A DNA stretch of 64,000 nt, taken from assembly GCF_900177345.1 (NCBI RefSeq), contig NZ_FWZT01000001.1, positions 372,001-436,000 on the forward strand, written 5' to 3'. The DNA is from Pseudobacteriovorax antillogorgiicola (GTDB lineage Bacteria; Bdellovibrionota_B; Oligoflexia; Oligoflexales; Oligoflexaceae). The translations under genes were made by a program, and so were the position numbers. The notes beneath the pieces were generated by a model. That model ran no database searches, was not told the origin of the DNA, and was given only the letters and a program-made list of their open reading frames with translations. Positions 1,710 through 10,328 of the stretch are shown piece by piece. How positions within the stretch are numbered: the stretch's first letter is position 1; every line of letters begins with the position of its first letter.

Positions 1710-3257
1710 ATGACGTTTCTGGCAGTGGAGCGGGGAAAAGAAGCGGGAAAAAGATATGAGTTGCAGGTGTTTCCAGCCACAATTGGCCGGGACCCTAAGA
1801 ACGTTGTTGTCATCGCTGATGGCGAGGCATCCCGATATCATTTTCGGATCAAACAACGGGGTCGGCTGTATATCCTGGAAGACCTGGAATCCCGAAATGG
1901 CACCTATGTGAATGGTGACAGAGTCATCAACACAACCTTGAAAGGCGGCGATAAAATTTTGCTTGGTAGCACCGAGCTTATATTTTTTGCACCGGACAGT
2001 GAAATCACAATTCCAACTGACTTCCTATCGTTTGACATGCAGATTGATGAAAAGGCTGGTATCAAAGGCCCTATCGGGATCAGCGAGATCGCTAGCAGCA
2101 CCCCTTTCATTGCCAATCGCTTGGACCCAGCGGTCCTTGCAAATAACGTGATGTCTAACGAATCTACGATCAAGCAGGTTTTTAATTACCACAGTAATCT
2201 TATGGTTATTCGAGACCTCAATGAGATGTGTTCGACATTGCTAAAATCCATCGGCAAGATGATCCCTAATTCTTCACGGGCCGCGCTTTTTATCTGGTCT
2301 GAGAAAAGCAGACAACTTCTACCGTTTGCTAAGAAGGACTTTCAGCTCTCAATTCCATTTCAGTTAAGCCAAAGAGCGTTCGAGGATTGTCTATCTCGTA
2401 AGCAAGTTGTCTTACTAGAGCCGGATACCCGGACAACCCAATCGGGTCGTAACAGGGCTATCATGCCGATCACTCATAATGATAGCATCATAGCACTAAT
2501 CCATGTAGAGATCGACAATCCGAGACACAAGTTCCGCTCTGCTGAGTTAGAGGCCGCCCAAGCCCTGCTATTTAGAGCATCTCCTATCATGGAGTCTCTA
2601 CTTTTAAGAAGAGAAATAGATAGCTGGCTCGTCGGAATCATGGATACGATTATCGCAACCGTTGAAGCAAAAGATACCTATACCAGAGGTCATTCCGAAC
2701 GCGTGGCCAATTACTGTATGGCTATCGCTGATGAGTTAAAACTGAATAAAGAGATCAAACGTCTTTTAATGATCAGTGCTCTTTGTCATGATATCGGGAA
2801 GATTGGGATTCCTGATTCCATACTCAAAAAGGCATCCCTACTTAGTGCAGAAGAATACGCTGAGATGAAGCTTCATCCCACTATCGGAGCAAGTATCATC
2901 AGTCACCTTCCAAATGCCCAGAGAATCATCTCTGGCGTGAAGTACCACCACGAAAAATGGGATGGCACAGGATATCCGGATGGACTAGCAGGCGAAGACA
3001 TTCCCTTCTTCGGACGTATCGTTGCACTGGGCGACGTTTATGATGCGATGATCTCTGGGCGGTCGTATTCGGGCTTTGTTAACGAAGATGATGCGATCGA
3101 GCGAATTCACGAGGAGCGGGAGTTATTTGATCCTGAAATTCTAAGGGCACTCATTCGGGCCCATGAAAAAGGAACTCTCACCCAAAAAACATCGACTCAA
3201 AACAATGCTCTTGCTGAAGAGTCTAGAGTTGTCACAGAAATCACAAAAATCAAATAA
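1710..3257 (+). CDS. FHA - GAF-like - HD-GYP regulatory protein
   Basis: A 515-residue cytoplasmic protein. Residues about 20-92 form an FHA phosphothreonine-binding domain (GRD at 26-28, SRYH at 41-44, SRNGTYVNG at 61-69). Residues about 165-295 resemble a GAF sensor domain. Residues about 310-480 form an HD-GYP domain with GHSERV, CHDIGKIGIPD (HD at 360-361) and HHEKWDGTGYPDG (GYP at 421-423). HD-GYP domains are cyclic-di-GMP phosphodiesterases, and the visible metal and GYP residues are intact, so an active enzyme is expected. The FHA domain implies control by binding a Thr-phosphorylated partner. A ligand for the GAF region is unknown. Confidence 0.92.
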   Translation: MTFLAVERGKEAGKRYELQVFPATIGRDPKNVVVIADGEASRYHFRIKQRGRLYILEDLESRNGTYVNGDRVINTTLKGGDKILLGSTELIFFAPDSEITIPTDFLSFDMQIDEKAGIKGPIGISEIASSTPFIANRLDPAVLANNVMSNESTIKQVFNYHSNLMVIRDLNEMCSTLLKSIGKMIPNSSRAALFIWSEKSRQLLPFAKKDFQLSIPFQLSQRAFEDCLSRKQVVLLEPDTRTTQSGRNRAIMPITHNDSIIALIHVEIDNPRHKFRSAELEAAQALLFRASPIMESLLLRREIDSWLVGIMDTIIATVEAKDTYTRGHSERVANYCMAIADELKLNKEIKRLLMISALCHDIGKIGIPDSILKKASLLSAEEYAEMKLHPTIGASIISHLPNAQRIISGVKYHHEKWDGTGYPDGLAGEDIPFFGRIVALGDVYDAMISGRSYSGFVNEDDAIERIHEERELFDPEILRALIRAHEKGTLTQKTSTQNNALAEESRVVTEITKIK

Positions 3258-3275
3258 AGCAGCGACCAAATGCTG

Positions 3276-3405
3276 CTAGTGCCTAGTCAAATTGAATTCT
3301 CGGCTCGGCGACAAGGAACGATCGAGAAGACAGTACGTGCTAGGTAGGGTGACGAGCGAGTGACAAAGTCAACAACGCCGAGGCACAAAATCGACTAGGC
3401 ACTAG
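3276..3405 (+). repeat. 130-bp imperfect inverted-repeat element, copy 2
   Basis: Second copy of the element at 225-354, 18 bp after the HD-GYP stop codon and 73 bp before the ExbB-like start. Its outer 13 bases are a perfect inverted pair: CTAGTGCCTAGTC at the left and GACTAGGCACTAG at the right. Long shared blocks with copy 1 include TTGAATTCTCGGCT and GGTGACGAGCGAGTGACAAA. It occupies most of the intergenic space and may also act as a transcript end or processing hairpin between the two genes. Confidence 0.85.
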
Positions 3406-3478
3406 TAAGATTTTTCCCAGGACATAAGATTACAATCAAAGGGACGAATATTAATCTTTCTTAGAAAGAGGAAGTCCC

Positions 3479-4276
3479 ATGTGGAGTCAGCTAGCCGTCA
3501 GCTTGCAGAATGGTAATACCTACCTCATTCTGATATTAATTCTAGGTTTTCTAGGCACAACGATCATTTTCGAGCGATTCATCAACCTACAGTTTCGCTA
3601 TTACGTAGATTTTGGAAAATTTCTCAACAATTTGAGGCGTTCAGTTCAAGCAGAAGACCTCGATCGAGCTGTCAGTATATGCAAGAACGCATCAAACACG
3701 TCACTGCCAGCAATCGGACTTAAAGCTCTTGAAGCTGCTGAGCGGGATCCAACAACAGTTCGAGGGACCATTGAAGAAGAAACTATAGACTTCCTTCCCA
3801 AGTTGGAAACCCGAATCGGCATTCTACCGGCACTCTCTACTTTAATCCTGCTCATCGGCGTTCTAGGAACTATTGACGGATTATGGAATGCATTTGATTC
3901 AATTGAGATTCTCGACACATCCGAAAAACAAGCTCGGCTAGCTAACGGTATAGCTGAATCACTAAACCCCACAACAATGGGCTTGCTTATATCCATGATA
4001 TTTCTAACCGGCCACCAAATCCTAAAAGGCATGGCCATCAAGCTCACGGAGCGACTTCACTACGGAGTCTCAGTTATCATGAACTTACTAGTGCCGAACG
4101 AAGTACCAACGTATGTCGCAGCCGCACCTATTGAGGCGCCTGTCGCCATGGCTCCGCAGCAGCCTGATGATTCGGCTGCAGACTTGGATGAACCAGAAGC
4201 CGAACCAGAGGAAGAAGATGATAGCTTCGACGATGCTTCAGTTGAAGATATTAAGGACGAAGAAGAGATTATCTAA
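3479..4276 (+). CDS. MotA/TolQ/ExbB-family proton channel subunit (AglR-like)
   Basis: A 265-residue inner-membrane protein with the three-helix plan of the TolQ/ExbB family: TM1 at about 14-34, a cytoplasmic loop, TM2 around GVLGTIDGLWNAF and TM3 around AESLNPTTMGLLISMIFL. The last two match the family blocks that line the ion path. The C-terminal 50 residues are strongly acidic (runs of D and E), which is unusual for TolQ. The ribosome site AGAGGAA sits 6 nt before the ATG. It heads a tight operon with two ExbD-like genes and a TonB/AgmX-like gene, so it probably forms the stator of an envelope motor. TolQ, ExbB and AglR cannot be separated by sequence alone. Confidence 0.85.
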   Translation: MWSQLAVSLQNGNTYLILILILGFLGTTIIFERFINLQFRYYVDFGKFLNNLRRSVQAEDLDRAVSICKNASNTSLPAIGLKALEAAERDPTTVRGTIEEETIDFLPKLETRIGILPALSTLILLIGVLGTIDGLWNAFDSIEILDTSEKQARLANGIAESLNPTTMGLLISMIFLTGHQILKGMAIKLTERLHYGVSVIMNLLVPNEVPTYVAAAPIEAPVAMAPQQPDDSAADLDEPEAEPEEEDDSFDDASVEDIKDEEEII

Positions 4277-4784
4277 TATTATATGGTACTTACCAATTAT
4301 CGTTCTAAGTACCATGGGATTATTTCTTCTTTTATCCTTCGCCTTGCGCTCTATTTCCATGGCCGGGAAATACGGGCTCATTCCTGTTGAAATTCCAGTC
4401 TTGTCGGTTCCTATTGTCGATCCGACATTATCCAACTTTCAAGCCGCAACATCAGGAGAGATTGCTAGCACGACGCCCATGGTAGTTCTAACAAAGGAAG
4501 AATTTATCTTTGGTGATGTAAACGCTTTCTCTGAAGAAATATCGAGTGTTCGAAACAAATTCATTGTAAAGCACGTTGAAGGATCGCCAGACATCAACAC
4601 TTTAGTCAAAGATATTGAAAAGTGGGTCTATGCTCGCAGTAGCAAAAAGAAAATCACTAATCAGGGTATTGTGATCCTGCTTCCTACTGACAGCATTCCG
4701 TCACCTCTGGTCGTTCAGACAATAGATGGTCTTAGAAAGACGGGCACCTTCACCCGCGTGGTGCTTGCGGGGGGACTTAAATGA
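4233..4784 (+). CDS. ExbD/TolR-like single-span membrane protein 1
   Basis: About 183 residues: a short basic N-terminus, one membrane helix (WYLPIIVLSTMGLFLLLSFA) and a periplasmic domain. The C-terminal block (PSPLVVQTIDGLRKTGTFTR then VVLAGG) has the shape of the ExbD/TolR C-terminal domain. The usual TM Asp of ExbD/TolR is not evident, so the family call is moderate. The start is uncertain. The frame is open back to 4113 inside the preceding gene, but the ATG at 4233 gives a normal short cytoplasmic tail and a 44-nt overlap. The stop overlaps the next start in an ATGA, which indicates translational coupling. Confidence 0.7.
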   Translation: MLQLKILRTKKRLSNIIWYLPIIVLSTMGLFLLLSFALRSISMAGKYGLIPVEIPVLSVPIVDPTLSNFQAATSGEIASTTPMVVLTKEEFIFGDVNAFSEEISSVRNKFIVKHVEGSPDINTLVKDIEKWVYARSSKKKITNQGIVILLPTDSIPSPLVVQTIDGLRKTGTFTRVVLAGGLK

Positions 4785-5305
4785 AATCACCCAACGCCTT
4801 CGATCGCCCTTGGGTCTTGGCGATAACAAAACTTAAAGAACGATTGGAGGAGCCGGTTCAGTGGTACCCCTTTCCAGCAATGATAGGCTTTATGTTGGTC
4901 ATGATACTCGGTGGCCATCTCTTAACAGACTTAAATCCGAGACTCGGAGCCCGTGTAGATGTTCTACCTCTCGATGCACCTCGTCACCAGGATGGTGGGA
5001 TCTGGCTGGGGATTTATGAAGACAATGGTAGGATCAATGTTGTAACCTCCGATCGGAAAAAATTTTCCTGGCCCAGCAATACAGAGAACTTAGAATCCAT
5101 TGAGCCACTCATCAACTACCTTAAACGCCAAACCCATCATGAATCTTTTTCAATGGCACTCAAGATGGAGAGTAGTTTAACAAAGATCACTGCAGTAATA
5201 GCAATTGATCAACGACTAAAATATGCACATTTGAAACCCTTAATTTTTGCACTATCGTCAGCTAAAATCACTCGCTATGGATTCGAAACAAGGATTATAA
5301 ACTAA
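4781..5305 (+). CDS. ExbD/TolR-like single-span membrane protein 2
   Basis: A 174-residue protein with a cytoplasmic N-terminus of about 33 residues, one helix (FPAMIGFMLVMILGGHLL) and a periplasmic domain. The segment GGIWLGIYEDNGRINVVTSD and the end LIFALSSAKITRYGFET follow the ExbD/TolR beta-alpha layout. It overlaps the previous gene by 4 nt and is followed 3 nt later by the TonB/AgmX-like gene. Two divergent ExbD-type proteins behind one ExbB-type channel resemble the AglR-AglQ/AglS arrangement of myxobacterial gliding motors. That parallel is an inference from gene order and topology. Confidence 0.65.
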   Translation: MKSPNAFDRPWVLAITKLKERLEEPVQWYPFPAMIGFMLVMILGGHLLTDLNPRLGARVDVLPLDAPRHQDGGIWLGIYEDNGRINVVTSDRKKFSWPSNTENLESIEPLINYLKRQTHHESFSMALKMESSLTKITAVIAIDQRLKYAHLKPLIFALSSAKITRYGFETRIIN

Positions 5306-5308
5306 GGA

Positions 5309-6964
5309 ATGTTTCGCCGAAGAAAAAAATCTGAAGAATATAAGATTTTTGTGGAAGTTCTACAGAACGGTGAACTCCTATCAAAAATATCACGACCGTT
5401 CGATAAAATGGGCACCATCCGACTCACATCTAAACCAGATGGCGACTTAACAGCTCCTTTCTACCCGCTACCAACTGATATTGATCTTATCAAGATCACC
5501 AAGCGTGGCGCAGAGGTTGACCTCGACCCCAATTGGGAAGGCTTTACGACTTTTGAAGGTCGCATTGAAGACATCAGCTCTCATCGTAATACTCAGTATA
5601 CTCATATTATGAAGAAGGGTGATTATGGGAGTATCGCCTATAATGACTTAAGAGTGCTGATTCGCATTGGGAAGGAACGCCCAAAAACTAAACGCCAAGC
5701 AGATCGCAAGCCTACAGGAGAATACCGAGGTAAGATTTTCAATCTTTGGATTGGTGAGAAGCGGGATTTTCAAATACTGGCTATAGGATTTCTAGCGGCC
5801 GCATGGCTATTTGGTTCGTTTACATTGGCCCTTCTAAAGAGGCCTGACACGCGACCGAAAAACTTCTTTGATCTACAACCAGTTTACACCCTACCCTTCA
5901 TTCACCCTAAACACCTTGCGCTATTGCCAGAAGCGCTACAGCTGCGACTGGATCGTACCGATCTTATTGGTTCATCCTTCGAATACTATATGAACCTTGC
6001 ATCGACGATCCTTGGTTTTAGCAGTCGTTGGAACCCTGCGATATATAAGTCAACTTACAATATGTACGAAGACCTTCACCGAGATCAGAAAGTTGAAATT
6101 CGCCAGCTATTAACCGAACAAAGCCTGATCGATAGAAAAATTTCCCAGGATAAGCTTAGCTCATTAATTGTAATTCCGGCTATTAAAGGGGAAACCTTGG
6201 ATCAGCAGCTTCTGCGACTTCACGACAAAATCGAAATCATTCACAAAAATCTTGAACTTTCCTTGAAATATCGGCGTAAAGTATCCAAAGCCTGGGAGAA
6301 CGATGAAAAGTATGCTTTTAGCAACTATCGAAGCGTGAAACCGATTCGACGAGGACTTATGACTGGCCCCGCTGTGAAGGATGAAGAGGAAGACGAACCC
6401 AACACAGCAGACGAAAAAGCGATGTACAAAGAAGCTAAGGAACTTGCGAACTTTGCAGCGGTGCAGCAAAGCGATATGAGACGAATGCGGGAAAAGTCTG
6501 TGGCCCTAAATCCTGATAATGCTAAGCCGATAGCAGTAAGTCCAAAAAATCCATATGTCAGCTTTTTAAGCCCGGAGGGTCTCTCTCAACTAAATGAGAA
6601 ACTTAGTTTGATCAAAGCGTCTACATTTGACCTTCGAAAAACAGGTATGCTCAAGGAGCCTTTGCTAGGAGAGATCAACCCAGAATTGATCAACAAAACA
6701 ATCACCCGCAACAAATTCCAACTTCAGCTATGTTTCGAGTTAGCATTGAGGCGCAACCAAAACCTTCAAGGCAGCATGGAGTGGCAGTGGCGGCTCGACT
6801 CACGAGGGAGAATTTCTGACATTGAACTTTTGGATACAACCATCTCTGACCGGAGAATGATTCGCTGCGTTCGAAAGAAAATTGCAAATTGGAGATTTCC
6901 CCGACCTCGTCGAGGTAGTGTTGAAATTAAGTACCCCTTCTATTTTGCACCAGCCAAGGGGTAA
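5309..6964 (+). CDS. TonB-like protein with AgmX/PglI-type C-terminal domain
   Basis: A 551-residue protein. Residues 1-150 are a cytoplasmic, beta-rich domain. Residues about 155-176 are a single membrane helix (ILAIGFLAAAWLFGSFTLAL). A long charged region follows, with an acidic patch KDEEEDEPN. Residues about 455-551 match the AgmX/PglI-type C-terminal domain, a TonB-like fold (ITRNKFQLQLCFELALRR, GRISDIELLDTTISD, CVRKKIANWRFPRPR). Such domains are thought to transmit force from an ExbB/ExbD-type motor to the cell envelope. It is the last of four genes with minimal spacing, which supports that partnership. The role could be gliding, envelope constriction or import. Confidence 0.8.
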   Translation: MFRRRKKSEEYKIFVEVLQNGELLSKISRPFDKMGTIRLTSKPDGDLTAPFYPLPTDIDLIKITKRGAEVDLDPNWEGFTTFEGRIEDISSHRNTQYTHIMKKGDYGSIAYNDLRVLIRIGKERPKTKRQADRKPTGEYRGKIFNLWIGEKRDFQILAIGFLAAAWLFGSFTLALLKRPDTRPKNFFDLQPVYTLPFIHPKHLALLPEALQLRLDRTDLIGSSFEYYMNLASTILGFSSRWNPAIYKSTYNMYEDLHRDQKVEIRQLLTEQSLIDRKISQDKLSSLIVIPAIKGETLDQQLLRLHDKIEIIHKNLELSLKYRRKVSKAWENDEKYAFSNYRSVKPIRRGLMTGPAVKDEEEDEPNTADEKAMYKEAKELANFAAVQQSDMRRMREKSVALNPDNAKPIAVSPKNPYVSFLSPEGLSQLNEKLSLIKASTFDLRKTGMLKEPLLGEINPELINKTITRNKFQLQLCFELALRRNQNLQGSMEWQWRLDSRGRISDIELLDTTISDRRMIRCVRKKIANWRFPRPRRGSVEIKYPFYFAPAKG

Positions 6965-6975
6965 TTGACTTTCTA

Positions 6976-8661
6976 ATGTCTGTGATCCATGTTAGTTCCG
7001 ACAAAATTTGCTCGGACAAAGAGACTGATATGAGCCATTTAAAAACCACAATTGAATCTTTAGACCCAAAAAAGCTCCACGTTCTGTTTATGGGCGGCTG
7101 TGGATCATTTGGAATGAATATAACTGCTTACATTTACGGGGATAAGCTCTATCTCGTGGATGTGGGCCTCGCCTTTGCCAGCGACTATGAGATTGGCATC
7201 GATAGCCACGTGCCCGACTTGACCTCCCTGATGGAATGCTTCGATCAAGTAGAAGCCTATTTCATCACCCATGGACATGAGGATCATGTGGGAGCCTTGC
7301 CGCTGATATTAGAGCGGTGGCCGGCTCCTGTTTACATGACTGCTTGGACCGAAAAAATTTTTATGGATCGAATTCAAAAGTTTGGCTCTCGAATCCAGCC
7401 AGAGGTCCATGTGGTCAGCCCCGGTGATCGTATTCGTGGCGGAAATCTTTTTGTCGATTGGGTTCATATCCCTCACTCAATTCCAGGATGCTGCTGTCTC
7501 TTGATAACTGCTGATAAGACCACAGTTTTTCATACAGGAGATTTTAAATTCGACCATCAGCCTTTTGGAGAGCCAGGACCTGATGTGGGCTTCCTTAAGT
7601 CGATAGCCCCTGTGACAGCAATGATTGCCGACAGCACAAACAGCGGTCATGAAGGAAAATGTCCCAGTGAAACAAGCGTCCAGGAGACGATCTACCAATG
7701 CTTTAAAACCAGTCAAGGGATGATTGTTTTTTCCACGTTCTCAAGCAATTTCTGGCGACTCCGTATTGTCTTAGAGGCTTGCTCAAAGCTGAAGAAAAAG
7801 GTGTTCCTTTCGGGTGCTTCCATATTAAAGACCTTAGAGATAGCCAGCCAAGTCTTTGGATATCATCCGCCAGAAGGATTGATTATTGACGAAAGCCAAA
7901 TTCCACACCAAGAGCGATCTAGTCTAGTGGTGATTGCAAGTGGTAGCCAAGGAGAACCCCGATCTGGTCTGCGACGAATCGTATTTGGTGAACACAAACA
8001 TGTGAGCTTGAATGCAGGTGATACCATCATTCTATCGTCACGAGTCATCCCAGGAAATGAAAAGTCAGTGGCTATGATTACCAGTGAAGCGCATAAAAAG
8101 GGCGTCTATGTTCGTACCAATAAATCAGATCCAGGAATTCATGTGAGTGGCCATGCTCATCGTGGTGATCTATCAGAACTCATTGAACTGATTCAACCCA
8201 AGCACTATATCCCTGTTCACGGAACATTTACTCAGCTAAAAGCCAATGAAGAGCTACACCCCCATTCTGTTTCAGTAGAAAACGGTAGTCTCGTTCGAGT
8301 TGCCGAGCGTAACGTAAAGGTTGAGGACACTTTCGACTTCGATAAGCTATTTGTTGACTCCTGGTCGCAGAGGCCTATGAGCTACGAATCCATGCGAAAG
8401 CGACATAAGATTGGTGATTCAGGGCTTGCCGTTATAAGCGGCCACCTATTCAACATTGACGTTGAGTTCTTTGGTCTGCCATTTGACAATGAAGCCCATC
8501 AAACCAAGAGTGCAGAAGACATCAGAGCCATTATCGCCGAGGGTCACCACAAAACCGAGAATCTCGACGATCTTAACGAGTGGGCCAGGCTTCACTGCCG
8601 GCGCTACCTTTCTAGCCTATTTGTTAAAAAGCCCGTGGTCATTTCAAAGATTTTCTCTTAA
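6976..8661 (+). CDS. rnj: RNase J-type metallo-beta-lactamase ribonuclease
   Basis: A 561-residue protein of the beta-CASP metallo-beta-lactamase group. The metal-binding motif THGHEDHVG is at about 98-106, and GDFKFDH and a late SGHAHRGDL block are also present. The order and length fit RNase J, a 5'-3' exo/endoribonuclease in RNA maturation and decay. An alternative start is the ATG at 7030, which gives a more usual N-terminus; neither has a strong ribosome site. It begins 11 nt after the AgmX-like gene and ends 13 nt before the NUDIX gene, so all six genes from 3479 may share a transcript. Confidence 0.88.
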   Translation: MSVIHVSSDKICSDKETDMSHLKTTIESLDPKKLHVLFMGGCGSFGMNITAYIYGDKLYLVDVGLAFASDYEIGIDSHVPDLTSLMECFDQVEAYFITHGHEDHVGALPLILERWPAPVYMTAWTEKIFMDRIQKFGSRIQPEVHVVSPGDRIRGGNLFVDWVHIPHSIPGCCCLLITADKTTVFHTGDFKFDHQPFGEPGPDVGFLKSIAPVTAMIADSTNSGHEGKCPSETSVQETIYQCFKTSQGMIVFSTFSSNFWRLRIVLEACSKLKKKVFLSGASILKTLEIASQVFGYHPPEGLIIDESQIPHQERSSLVVIASGSQGEPRSGLRRIVFGEHKHVSLNAGDTIILSSRVIPGNEKSVAMITSEAHKKGVYVRTNKSDPGIHVSGHAHRGDLSELIELIQPKHYIPVHGTFTQLKANEELHPHSVSVENGSLVRVAERNVKVEDTFDFDKLFVDSWSQRPMSYESMRKRHKIGDSGLAVISGHLFNIDVEFFGLPFDNEAHQTKSAEDIRAIIAEGHHKTENLDDLNEWARLHCRRYLSSLFVKKPVVISKIFS

Positions 8662-8674
8662 AGGGAGGCGTCCT

Positions 8675-9220
8675 ATGCAGTGGACGGTGAAGCAAGTTAG
8701 AACGCTGTTAGAGGCCAGACCATTTGCCGTACAAGCTATCGATCTGATCGATAATCGCAAAAAGAAGGAGTTGAACTACCCATTTTATAGACTGAAAGCC
8801 CCTGATTGGGTCAATGTCCTCGCCATTACAGAGGGTCAAAAAGCCGTGCTTGTGAAGCAGCAACGTGTGGGGACTATGACAGATACTCTGGAAATTCCAG
8901 GGGGCGTGATTGATGAAGGTGAAGACCCTAAGGTAGCAGCCATTCGAGAGCTTGAGGAAGAAACTGGTTACCGAGCAAAACGTGTTGAGCACGTCGCAAC
9001 AATCAACCCCAATCCGGCAATAATGACAAACAATGTCCATATGTTCGTCGCTTTGGATTGCGCCATACCGCAAGACCGAAAGCTCTTCCCCGATGAAAAC
9101 GAGTCTATCGACATTATCACCTGTGACGTTAAGGAACTGATACCTAAAACATTGAACCAGGAAATCAACAGTGCCCTTGCAGCCTTAACCATTCACATGT
9201 GCCGGGACTACTTTTCCTAG
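8675..9220 (+). CDS. NUDIX hydrolase (ADP-ribose pyrophosphatase-like)
   Basis: A 181-residue protein with a perfect NUDIX box at 77-99 (GX5EX7REUXEEXGU; core RELEEETGY), preceded by LEIPGG, as in ADP-ribose/ADP-sugar pyrophosphatases. The start is fixed by AGGGAGG about 7 nt before the ATG at 8675; the frame is open further upstream only inside the RNase J gene. The reaction is hydrolysis of a nucleoside diphosphate linked to another group; the precise substrate is not readable. Coupling with an RNase J gene could hint at RNA 5'-end or nucleotide clean-up work, but that is inference. Confidence 0.9.
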   Translation: MQWTVKQVRTLLEARPFAVQAIDLIDNRKKKELNYPFYRLKAPDWVNVLAITEGQKAVLVKQQRVGTMTDTLEIPGGVIDEGEDPKVAAIRELEEETGYRAKRVEHVATINPNPAIMTNNVHMFVALDCAIPQDRKLFPDENESIDIITCDVKELIPKTLNQEINSALAALTIHMCRDYFS

Positions 9221-9266
9221 AATGTCCTGACGCAGGTAGGTGTCAATGTGTCTTTGGAACTTAGTC

Positions 9267-9295
9267 TTGCAAAACGACGGACTCTTGGCTATAGA
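9267..9295 (+). promoter_or_regulatory. sigma-70-type promoter for the isocitrate dehydrogenase gene
   Basis: TTGCAA at 9267-9272 and TATAGA at 9290-9295 are separated by 17 bp. The pair lies in the 112-bp gap before the dehydrogenase gene, leaving a leader of about 30 nt. The match is good at both elements. No operator was recognised. Confidence 0.5.
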
Positions 9296-9332
9296 GATCA
9301 TCCCTCGATAGAATCAACGATCGGAGACACCA

Positions 9333-10328
9333 ATGAGAAAAGTTACTTTAGTCGAAGGTGATGGCATCGGACCAGAGATCACCCAAAGCGTTCAGCACAT
9401 TTTAGAAGCTGCTGGTGCCCAAATTGAGTGGGACGCACACGAAATCGGCCTTACAACATATGAAAAAACTGGCACACTTATTCCGCAGGAATTCATCGAT
9501 AGCCTTGAAAATAATGGCGTTGCTCTCAAAGGCCCCACGACAACTCCCGTTGGCGGTGGCCATCGGTCAATTAATGTATCCATGAGACAACTCTTTAAGC
9601 TCTATGCGAACGTACGCCCCATCAAGACCATCAAAGGACTCCCGAGTCGATACGAAAATGTCGATATGATTATCGTCCGTGAAAACTCGGAAGACCTTTA
9701 CAAAGGTATCGAGTACAAAGTCTCAGAAGGTGTTGCCCAGGGTATTAAATTGATTACTGCCGAGGCTTCGGAGCGCATTGGCCGTCATGCATTCGAACTT
9801 GCTCAAAAGCTTGGTCGGAAAAAAGTTACCGTCGTCCACAAAGCGAATATCATGAAGTTTACTGACGGTCTCTTTTTGGAGTCCGTTCGAAAGGTCGCTG
9901 CAAACTACACAGGCATCGAGCTGGATGAGCTAATTGTCGACAATTGCTGTATGCAGATGGTGACGAAGCCGGAGCAGTTTGATGTGATTGTCACCGAAAA
10001 TCTATACGGAGACATTCTTTCGGATTTAGCTGCTGGATTAATTGGCGGCCTAGGACTAGCTTCCGGTGCCAATATCGGGCAAAAGCAGGCGATCTTTGAG
10101 GCTGCTCATGGATCTGCTCCAGACATTGCCGGCAAAGACTTAGCAAACCCGACCGCCCTCCTTATGAGTGCGACGGCGATGCTCGATCATATCAACCAAA
10201 GTGATGTGGCTGCTAGAATCGAATCGGCCTTGAAAAAAACGCTCGCGAACCCAGAGACGCGAACAAAAGACTTAGGTGGGACACTAGGGTGCAAAGGCTT
10301 TACAGAAGCCATTATATCCAACCTCTAA
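9333..10328 (+). CDS. NAD-dependent isocitrate dehydrogenase (IDH3-like)
   Basis: A 331-residue beta-decarboxylating dehydrogenase. It shows VEGDGIGPEI at the N-terminus, the substrate block SINVSMRQLFKLYANVRP, IVRENSEDLYKGIEY, the metal-binding ENLYGDILSDLAAGL and the cofactor-region block EAAHGSAPDIAGK. The Ser-Ile-Asn block and length fit the short NAD-type isocitrate dehydrogenases rather than 3-isopropylmalate dehydrogenase. It would convert isocitrate to 2-oxoglutarate in the TCA cycle, the same pathway as sdhCAB at 18-21.6 kb. A GGAG site lies 6 nt before the ATG. A homoisocitrate dehydrogenase role is less likely but possible. Confidence 0.85.
   Translation: MRKVTLVEGDGIGPEITQSVQHILEAAGAQIEWDAHEIGLTTYEKTGTLIPQEFIDSLENNGVALKGPTTTPVGGGHRSINVSMRQLFKLYANVRPIKTIKGLPSRYENVDMIIVRENSEDLYKGIEYKVSEGVAQGIKLITAEASERIGRHAFELAQKLGRKKVTVVHKANIMKFTDGLFLESVRKVAANYTGIELDELIVDNCCMQMVTKPEQFDVIVTENLYGDILSDLAAGLIGGLGLASGANIGQKQAIFEAAHGSAPDIAGKDLANPTALLMSATAMLDHINQSDVAARIESALKKTLANPETRTKDLGGTLGCKGFTEAIISNL

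Follow-up and report, generated by a model that had tools for sequence, protein, structure and literature searches.

The core of the Myxococcus xanthus gliding motor combines one channel protein, AglR, with two ExbD-like proteins, AglQ and AglS, in the order R-Q-S, and with GltG, which carries an FHA domain, a transmembrane (TM) helix and a TonB-like tail. An interaction of AglR with GltG in a two-hybrid test is described in PMC3169522, and PMC9389320 presents a conserved Asp as predicted in both AglQ and AglS. A threonine ring and an Asp are given as essential in TolQR and ExbBD by PMC10666116, the Tol and Ton motors needing both, and for GldL-GldM, the gliding and type IX secretion motor of Bacteroidota, PMC8986121 reports that Glu49 in TM helix 2 of GldL is essential. 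Here we describe a cassette of four consecutive + strand genes, B, D1, D2 and T (3479-6964), in a 64-kb window (the whole stretch of DNA that was analysed) on contig C1 of the 7.28 Mb Pseudobacteriovorax antillogorgiicola genome, G000; all positions are window coordinates. The cassette is very probably a divergent paralogue or sister of the AglR-AglQ-AglS-GltG core, lacks the Asp in both of its ExbD-like proteins, and in relatives forms a conserved unit with a fifth gene, B-D1-D2-T-RNase J.

Architecture of the locus

B and D1 overlap by 56 nucleotides (nt), counted from the likely D1 start at 4221, D1 and D2 overlap by 4 nt, D2 and T are separated by a 3-nt gap, and RNase J starts 11 nt past the end of T. 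The longest D1 open reading frame (ORF) opens at 4113, but the likeliest start is the ATG at 4221, which has AGAGG ahead of it and comes closest to the starts seen in relatives. The four-gene arrangement is not a product of chance, as other members of the phylum show the genes in this order and with these couplings, in agreement with a sequence-only reading of this DNA that had proposed four coupled genes without tolB or pal beside them. That reading ended the unit at T; the genes it named are real, while its coordinates omit the RNase J gene, a member of the conserved block. The features are as follows.

3479..4276, + strand: B, ExbB/TolQ/AglR-like three-helix channel protein, 265 residues, acidic C-terminal tail (PF01618, 60 bits; sister clade of AglR)
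3875..3877, + strand: codon of B Asp133, helix 2, two residues past the pore threonine (acid conserved in order members)
4221..4784, + strand: D1, predicted ExbD/TolR-fold protein without the TM Asp, 187 residues from the likely start (AlphaFold2, Foldseek, VIA-align)
4256..4273, + strand: codons of the near-invariant B C-terminal DEEEII, overlapping the D1 frame
4781..5305, + strand: D2, ExbD-like protein without the TM Asp, 174 residues (PF02472 matches in relatives)
5309..6964, + strand: T, GltG-like TonB-type protein, 551 residues (NF033768, 89 bits; AlphaFold2, pLDDT 79.5)
5330..5680, + strand: T N-terminal cytoplasmic domain, predicted FHA fold, residues 8-124 (VIA-align, Foldseek)
5759..5836, + strand: T TM helix, approximately residues 151-176 (AlphaFold2 model, hydropathy)
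6665..6961, + strand: T C-terminal TonB/TolA-type domain, residues 453-551 (VIA-align, Foldseek, alignment)
6976..8661, + strand: RNase J, fifth gene of the block (PF22505, 107.5 bits; THGHEDH motif)
1710..3257, + strand: FHA-GAF-HD-GYP protein upstream of B; context outside the core, linked in most order members and not in group f12

Relationship to AglRQS-GltG

The match of B to PF01618 (cut-off 22.9) and its DEEEII C-terminus bear out the proposal of an ExbB/TolQ-type channel with an acidic tail. Comparison of the B and AglR profiles gives 99.7% in hhalign (E 1.6e-26), and members of the B family score 202-404 bits, the next paralogue reaching at most 123 bits. A maximum-likelihood tree with 65 rows places the 32 B sequences (24 from members of the order and eight from a distant group, f12) in one group (support 100/98) and AglR in a second (98/97), and unites these two to the exclusion of the other paralogues of these genomes (96/95, with long branches flagged by the tool and an arbitrary root). 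By its sequence, B thus appears as a sister of AglR and not as a member of the AglR clade.

The relationship of the ExbD-like proteins is more distant. No ExbD model matched the window D1 in profile search, and the window D2 reaches 15.9 bits against ExbD PF02472, below the cut-off of 25.4; of 27 D2 relatives, 19 match PF02472 with E values up to 0.1, the best being 1.7e-5. The top Foldseek match of the D1 AlphaFold2 model (pLDDT 79.1) is TolR (5by4, E 2.9e-3, probability 0.99), no Foldseek match having E <0.001. VIA-align places the model against ExbD at Z 8.3 (8vgc) and 8.1, although an unrelated mitochondrial ribosome chain ties at 8.3 and some other unrelated chains also score as high as ExbD or TolR. 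As modelled, D1 therefore resembles the periplasmic ExbD/TolR fold, and together with the D2 relatives this upholds the description of D1 and D2 as two divergent ExbD-type proteins. Local profile comparisons are weak (D1-D2 51.5%, D2-AglS 15.6%, D1-AglQ 29.7%), while hhalign pairs the D1 and D2 of group f12 with their counterparts in the order at 92.5% and 96.6%, respectively.

T matches the AgmX/PglI C-terminal domain NF033768 well above its cut-off of 40, and the model places a TonB fold at this end, as expected of the large TonB-like protein with an AgmX/PglI-type C-terminus that had been proposed. The local alignment of the T and GltG profiles (99.5%, E 7e-23) is confined to the C-terminal domain, as is the match to the GltG equivalog NF033760 (63.2 bits, cut-off 650). 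In the AlphaFold2 model an FHA fold is followed by the TM helix, further helices and a TonB-type tail, the latter aligning with the TonB C-terminal domain 5lw8 (VIA-align Z 9.0) and with 6fip in Foldseek, and carrying two cysteines, C475 and C520, that are conserved in the alignment. The N-terminal domain, previously left unassigned, can be assigned as an FHA fold: VIA-align gives Z values of approximately 7-8.2 to many FHA domains, each near the noise level of the tool, although nearly all of the N-terminal rows listed are FHA, and Foldseek matches it to FHA structures 4h87 and 5xzw. A Pfam sequence search of T found no FHA match, and the T profile had no match in the Protein Data Bank at E 0.01. 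Of the phosphothreonine-binding motifs, neither SxxH nor NG is conserved in T: by a crude count SxxH occurs in 7/32 and NG in 5/32, compared to 1/19 and 16/19 in GltG. The predicted architecture of T, FHA-TM-TonB tail, is that of GltG. A His motif was considered as a sign of a TonB-like TM helix and rejected; the window T has no His there, and since the helix cores of GltG also lack it the motif does not discriminate.

PF01618 is matched in 18 places in this genome. A tolQ-tolR-tolA-tolB run (tolA named by position) lies on contig C10, and Pal-type matches occur outside the cassette, one of them over the cut-off at C1:330786. On contig C21 a channel gene and two ExbD genes are followed by large periplasmic genes and a 719-residue protein with an AgmX/PglI tail (113 bits); by gene order and this match, the cluster is aglRQS-glt-type. 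Because both systems lie elsewhere, the cassette represents a further, separate one. A cluster of the aglRQS-glt type was fetched from 20 further genomes of the phylum, with a channel gene in 20/20 (three ExbD positions are masked by wrong-strand ORF calls, and L144 and L147 stop early at contig ends), and it is kept in G008, G009, G016 and G055, in which the cassette is missing. Unlike the AglRQS-GltG loci, the cassette is followed by RNase J, and the linked glt genes (GltC/D/E and others) are absent from its locus. The profile comparison of B with AglR, the joining of their clades and the architecture of T all place the cassette closer to AglRQS/GltG than to TolQRA, as had been suggested.

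Residues of the proton path

The TM Asp of the PxxDxF motif is found in none of 32 D1 and none of 32 D2 sequences (one D2 being truncated), unlike 19/19 AglQ and 20/20 AglS sequences of this phylum, many of which come from the genomes that also supplied D1 and D2 (three AglQ/AglS rows, wrong-strand ORFs in L146, L147 and L154, were excluded before counting). A column count, from which the truncated D2 of L068 was excluded, gives no acidic column in the TM cores of D1 or D2. A crude count of acids near the TM segments, with 12/32 D1 and 12/31 D2, takes in residues where the helices end; five f12 sequences, for instance, have a Glu at the D1 periplasmic end.

The pore threonines of B are also relaxed: the helix-2 Thr is present in 21 of 32 B sequences and the helix-3 Thr in 19, the latter in none of the eight f12 sequences, while all 21 AglR sequences have both. 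The threonine ring has thus decayed in at least a third of the family, although B of G000 itself retains both residues. Since the Asp is lost in both ExbD-like proteins and the pore threonines are relaxed, we infer that the canonical proton drive has probably been lost. The label of motor, given to the cassette by the sequence-only reading, is not supported by an ExbD pair without its proton-carrying Asp and a channel with a decayed threonine ring.

The B tail, by contrast with AglR a distinguishing feature of the cassette, is exactly DEEEII in 37 of 38 distinct sequences and DKEEII in the remaining one, and is retained in group f12. The D1 residues encoded over the same codons vary (Thr/Met, Lys/Arg, Leu/Ser, Ser/Phe/Tyr), and therefore selection acts on the B frame at this point.

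Linkage to RNase J

In a search of 58 genomes of the phylum, B was found in 46, and 41 of these have an RNase J domain encoded 3.0-3.6 kb downstream in the same orientation. The other five are interrupted by contig ends: G006, G014, G030 and G040 carry the halves on separate contigs, and in G002 the contig stops ahead of RNase J, which was not found in that genome. T-RNase J or D1-D2-T-RNase J stand at contig ends in G003 and G056, and the ten remaining genomes have no recognisable cassette; in G011, G055 and G057, all <90% complete, neither cassette nor RNase J was found. In members of the order, FHA-HD-GYP upstream and NUDIX, IDH, PP2C and M23 genes downstream are often linked too, while in group f12 the flanking genes all differ from these and the five-gene block stays.

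The assignment of the fifth gene rests on PF22505 (cut-off 27), its THGHEDH motif and long matches to solved RNase J structures, while its scores lie below the equivalog cut-offs (TIGR00649, 297 against 400; NF047419, 319 against 820). It is a single copy in G000 and the only PF22505 match of that genome. A literature search found no paper on RNase J with ExbB in an operon and none naming the cassette by title.

Small ORFs accompany some copies of RNase J that have no recognisable cassette. Two lie just ahead of RNase J in G008 (L163 6782-7685) and in G016 (L165 6310-7373, directly after FHA-HD-GYP), one with hydrophobic stretches and one a small domain, and others lie directly before a second RNase J copy in G039 (L171 74-852). 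Only the G008 ORF matches B, at 14.8 bits and over the first helix only, and the other small ORFs match nothing. These are possible reduced cassettes, without periplasmic parts and still beside RNase J.

At residue 330 of RNase J, Ser is found in 29 of 30 cassette-linked sequences and a different residue in six of eight cassette-less ones, a difference that may reflect descent alone.

Possible function of the cassette

ExbBD-type complexes are taken to be proton-driven via one Asp and a threonine ring. A family conserved through most of a phylum, in which the architecture is kept and the Asp dropped from both axle proteins, would represent either reuse as an unpowered scaffold or a proton path that has moved. 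We tentatively favour, while holding it to be somewhat short of an even prospect, a complex that spans the envelope, descends from a gliding motor without being canonically proton-driven, and acts as a sensor or scaffold with a probable tie to RNase J. In such a complex a ring of B would surround the D1 and D2 helices, and T, with its FHA-type domain in the cytoplasm, would cross the inner membrane and bring its TonB-type tail near the outer membrane, the whole serving as an envelope sensor or scaffold that is passive or weakly energised. The cytoplasmic face, formed by the DEEEII tail of B and the FHA-type domain of T, would contact a partner in the cytoplasm, for which RNase J is the most plausible candidate, and would thereby place or tune RNA decay by the state of the envelope. 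That RNase J is the functional partner is possible, if doubtful on present evidence. The fullest form of this idea, a retired gliding motor turned mechanosensor or anchor in which T senses the outer envelope and DEEEII and the FHA-type domain recruit or tune the only RNase J of the cell, is unlikely; if true, RNA decay would answer directly to envelope state. The fixed link to RNase J makes an envelope-spanning machine that touches RNA turnover a concrete and testable claim.

Several observations weigh against such a role, chiefly against its tie to RNase J. RNase J is retained in the absence of a recognisable cassette in G008, G009, G016, G017, G018, G026 and G038, as is the second copy in G039, and it therefore does not need the cassette. 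Among the 76 alignment columns that are at least 90% conserved in 30 cassette-linked RNase J sequences, 29 are broken by one or more of eight cassette-less sequences, at 3-10 breaks per sequence compared to 0-11 in a leave-one-out control, so that a clear loss of a docking surface is not seen in these eight. RNase J might also reach the membrane by a different route. In B. subtilis RNA decay has a membrane anchor in RNase Y according to PMC7509114, which describes RNA-decay complexes in other bacteria as tethered to the membrane through RNase E or RNase Y; RNase Y is over its cut-off in 54 of the 58 genomes, and a second anchor is less needed because it is so widespread. DEEEII may bind the FHA-type domain of T, or something else, instead of RNase J, and gene linkage is not in itself interaction. 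The last point concerns the drive: an Asp or Glu stands two residues past the helix-2 threonine of B in 23 of 24 order members, including the window B (Asp133), and a rewired proton path is therefore possible.

In such a rewired motor helix 2 of B would have taken over the proton-carrying acid from the ExbD helix, and T would still pull or turn an outer-membrane target. We regard this as rather unlikely, even though the force-transducing architecture is intact down to the TonB-type tail, the window B has kept both pore threonines, and the acid, found at this site in 0/21 AglR, has a precedent in Glu49 of GldL, where it likewise lies in helix 2 of the ring protein and not in the dimer protein (a possible likeness, in the position of the acid). 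Unlike GldL, the cassette lacks the helix-2 acid in group f12 (0/8, with Gln, Asn or His instead), which keeps the five-gene block and DEEEII without the helix-3 threonine; if the function is shared with f12, the acid is not its basis. The close kinship to AglRQS-GltG would also fit an ordinary force-coupled envelope machine, such as a gliding accessory, an outer-membrane tether or a constriction device, with RNase J as a housekeeping neighbour in a stable operon, and RNase J indeed survives alone where the cassette is lost, G018 having FHA-HD-GYP and then RNase J directly. This, too, we consider unlikely: between the order and f12 the other neighbours change while RNase J stays, and separate aglRQS-glt-type clusters persist where the cassette is missing. 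The suggested roles in gliding, predation or envelope constriction stand without direct support. Most improbable is a Tol-Pal or Ton system that is canonical but has odd sequences. The cassette does share with TolQ-TolR-TolA and ExbB-ExbD-TonB the fold classes of the channel, the periplasmic ExbD/TolR domain and the TonB-type tail, the D1 and T-tail models matching TolR, ExbD and TonB, and B does match the TolQ equivalog TIGR02796, yet at 33.6 bits against a cut-off of 221. It differs in its two dissimilar ExbD proteins, the FHA domain on T, and the lack of both the Asp and tolB/pal. A canonical TolQ-TolR-TolA set was the outcome that the sequence-only reading had named as fatal to its proposal; the low scores, together with the separate Tol set on C10 and the Pal match at C1:330786, instead refute membership of Tol.

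Related cassettes outside the phylum

The tail pattern was scanned in a collection of one genome per species (84,980 species), a search that finds only relatives with a DEEEII-type tail. Of 580 stretches, 29 encode a B relative, and those with informative names are Oligoflexia, the others being broadly or doubtfully labelled metagenome bins. In a profile search of 287 genomes, B was found in none of the 229 outside the phylum at E 1e-45, a thin sample that is insufficient to show absence from Bdellovibrionota or Myxococcota. At E 1e-18, 17 of the 229 are matched by the T profile, over its C-terminal part only.

Several of the 20 stretches that we opened from 14 of these 17 genomes hold channel-ExbD-ExbD-AgmX-tail cassettes (L178, L179, L180, L184, L189, L194; the L180 channel and the L184 AglQ-like gene were identified only by eye from reading frames, and the L194 AglQ-like gene was left unread). 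These AglR-AglQ-AglS-GltG-like cassettes have the same gene order, with an AgmX/PglI-tailed protein of 320-480 residues, and a four-gene cassette of this kind is thus not in itself new. No RNase J was found in the 20 stretches, and none of seven channel proteins examined has the DEEEII tail. With L177 and L195 included, the Asp is present in 8/8 AglS-like proteins and replaced by Asn in 7/7 readable AglQ-like proteins (by eye). This pairing, in L177, L178, L179, L180, L184, L189 and L195, would possibly make an asymmetric motor, and across all cassettes the combinations Asp/Asp, Asn/Asp and none/none occur.

Neighbouring features

At several f12 loci B is preceded by an N6/N4 DNA methylase and by a small protein (101-108 residues) that looks secreted (L071 6708-7964, L078 2481-3731). 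The downstream NUDIX protein was considered as an RNA pyrophosphohydrolase and rejected, its best matches being ADP-ribose pyrophosphatases, with 3ees, which we take to be Bdellovibrio RppH, only at E 7.4e-4. An Rfam search of 3200-9400 gave no match. A 130-base element whose ends are 12-base inverted repeats is present twice, at 225-354 and at 3276-3405, the copies being 88% identical and the second one separating B from the FHA-HD-GYP gene; folding of 3270-3480 is much stronger than that of shuffled sequence (z -4.8), and the element looks like a miniature inverted-repeat element.

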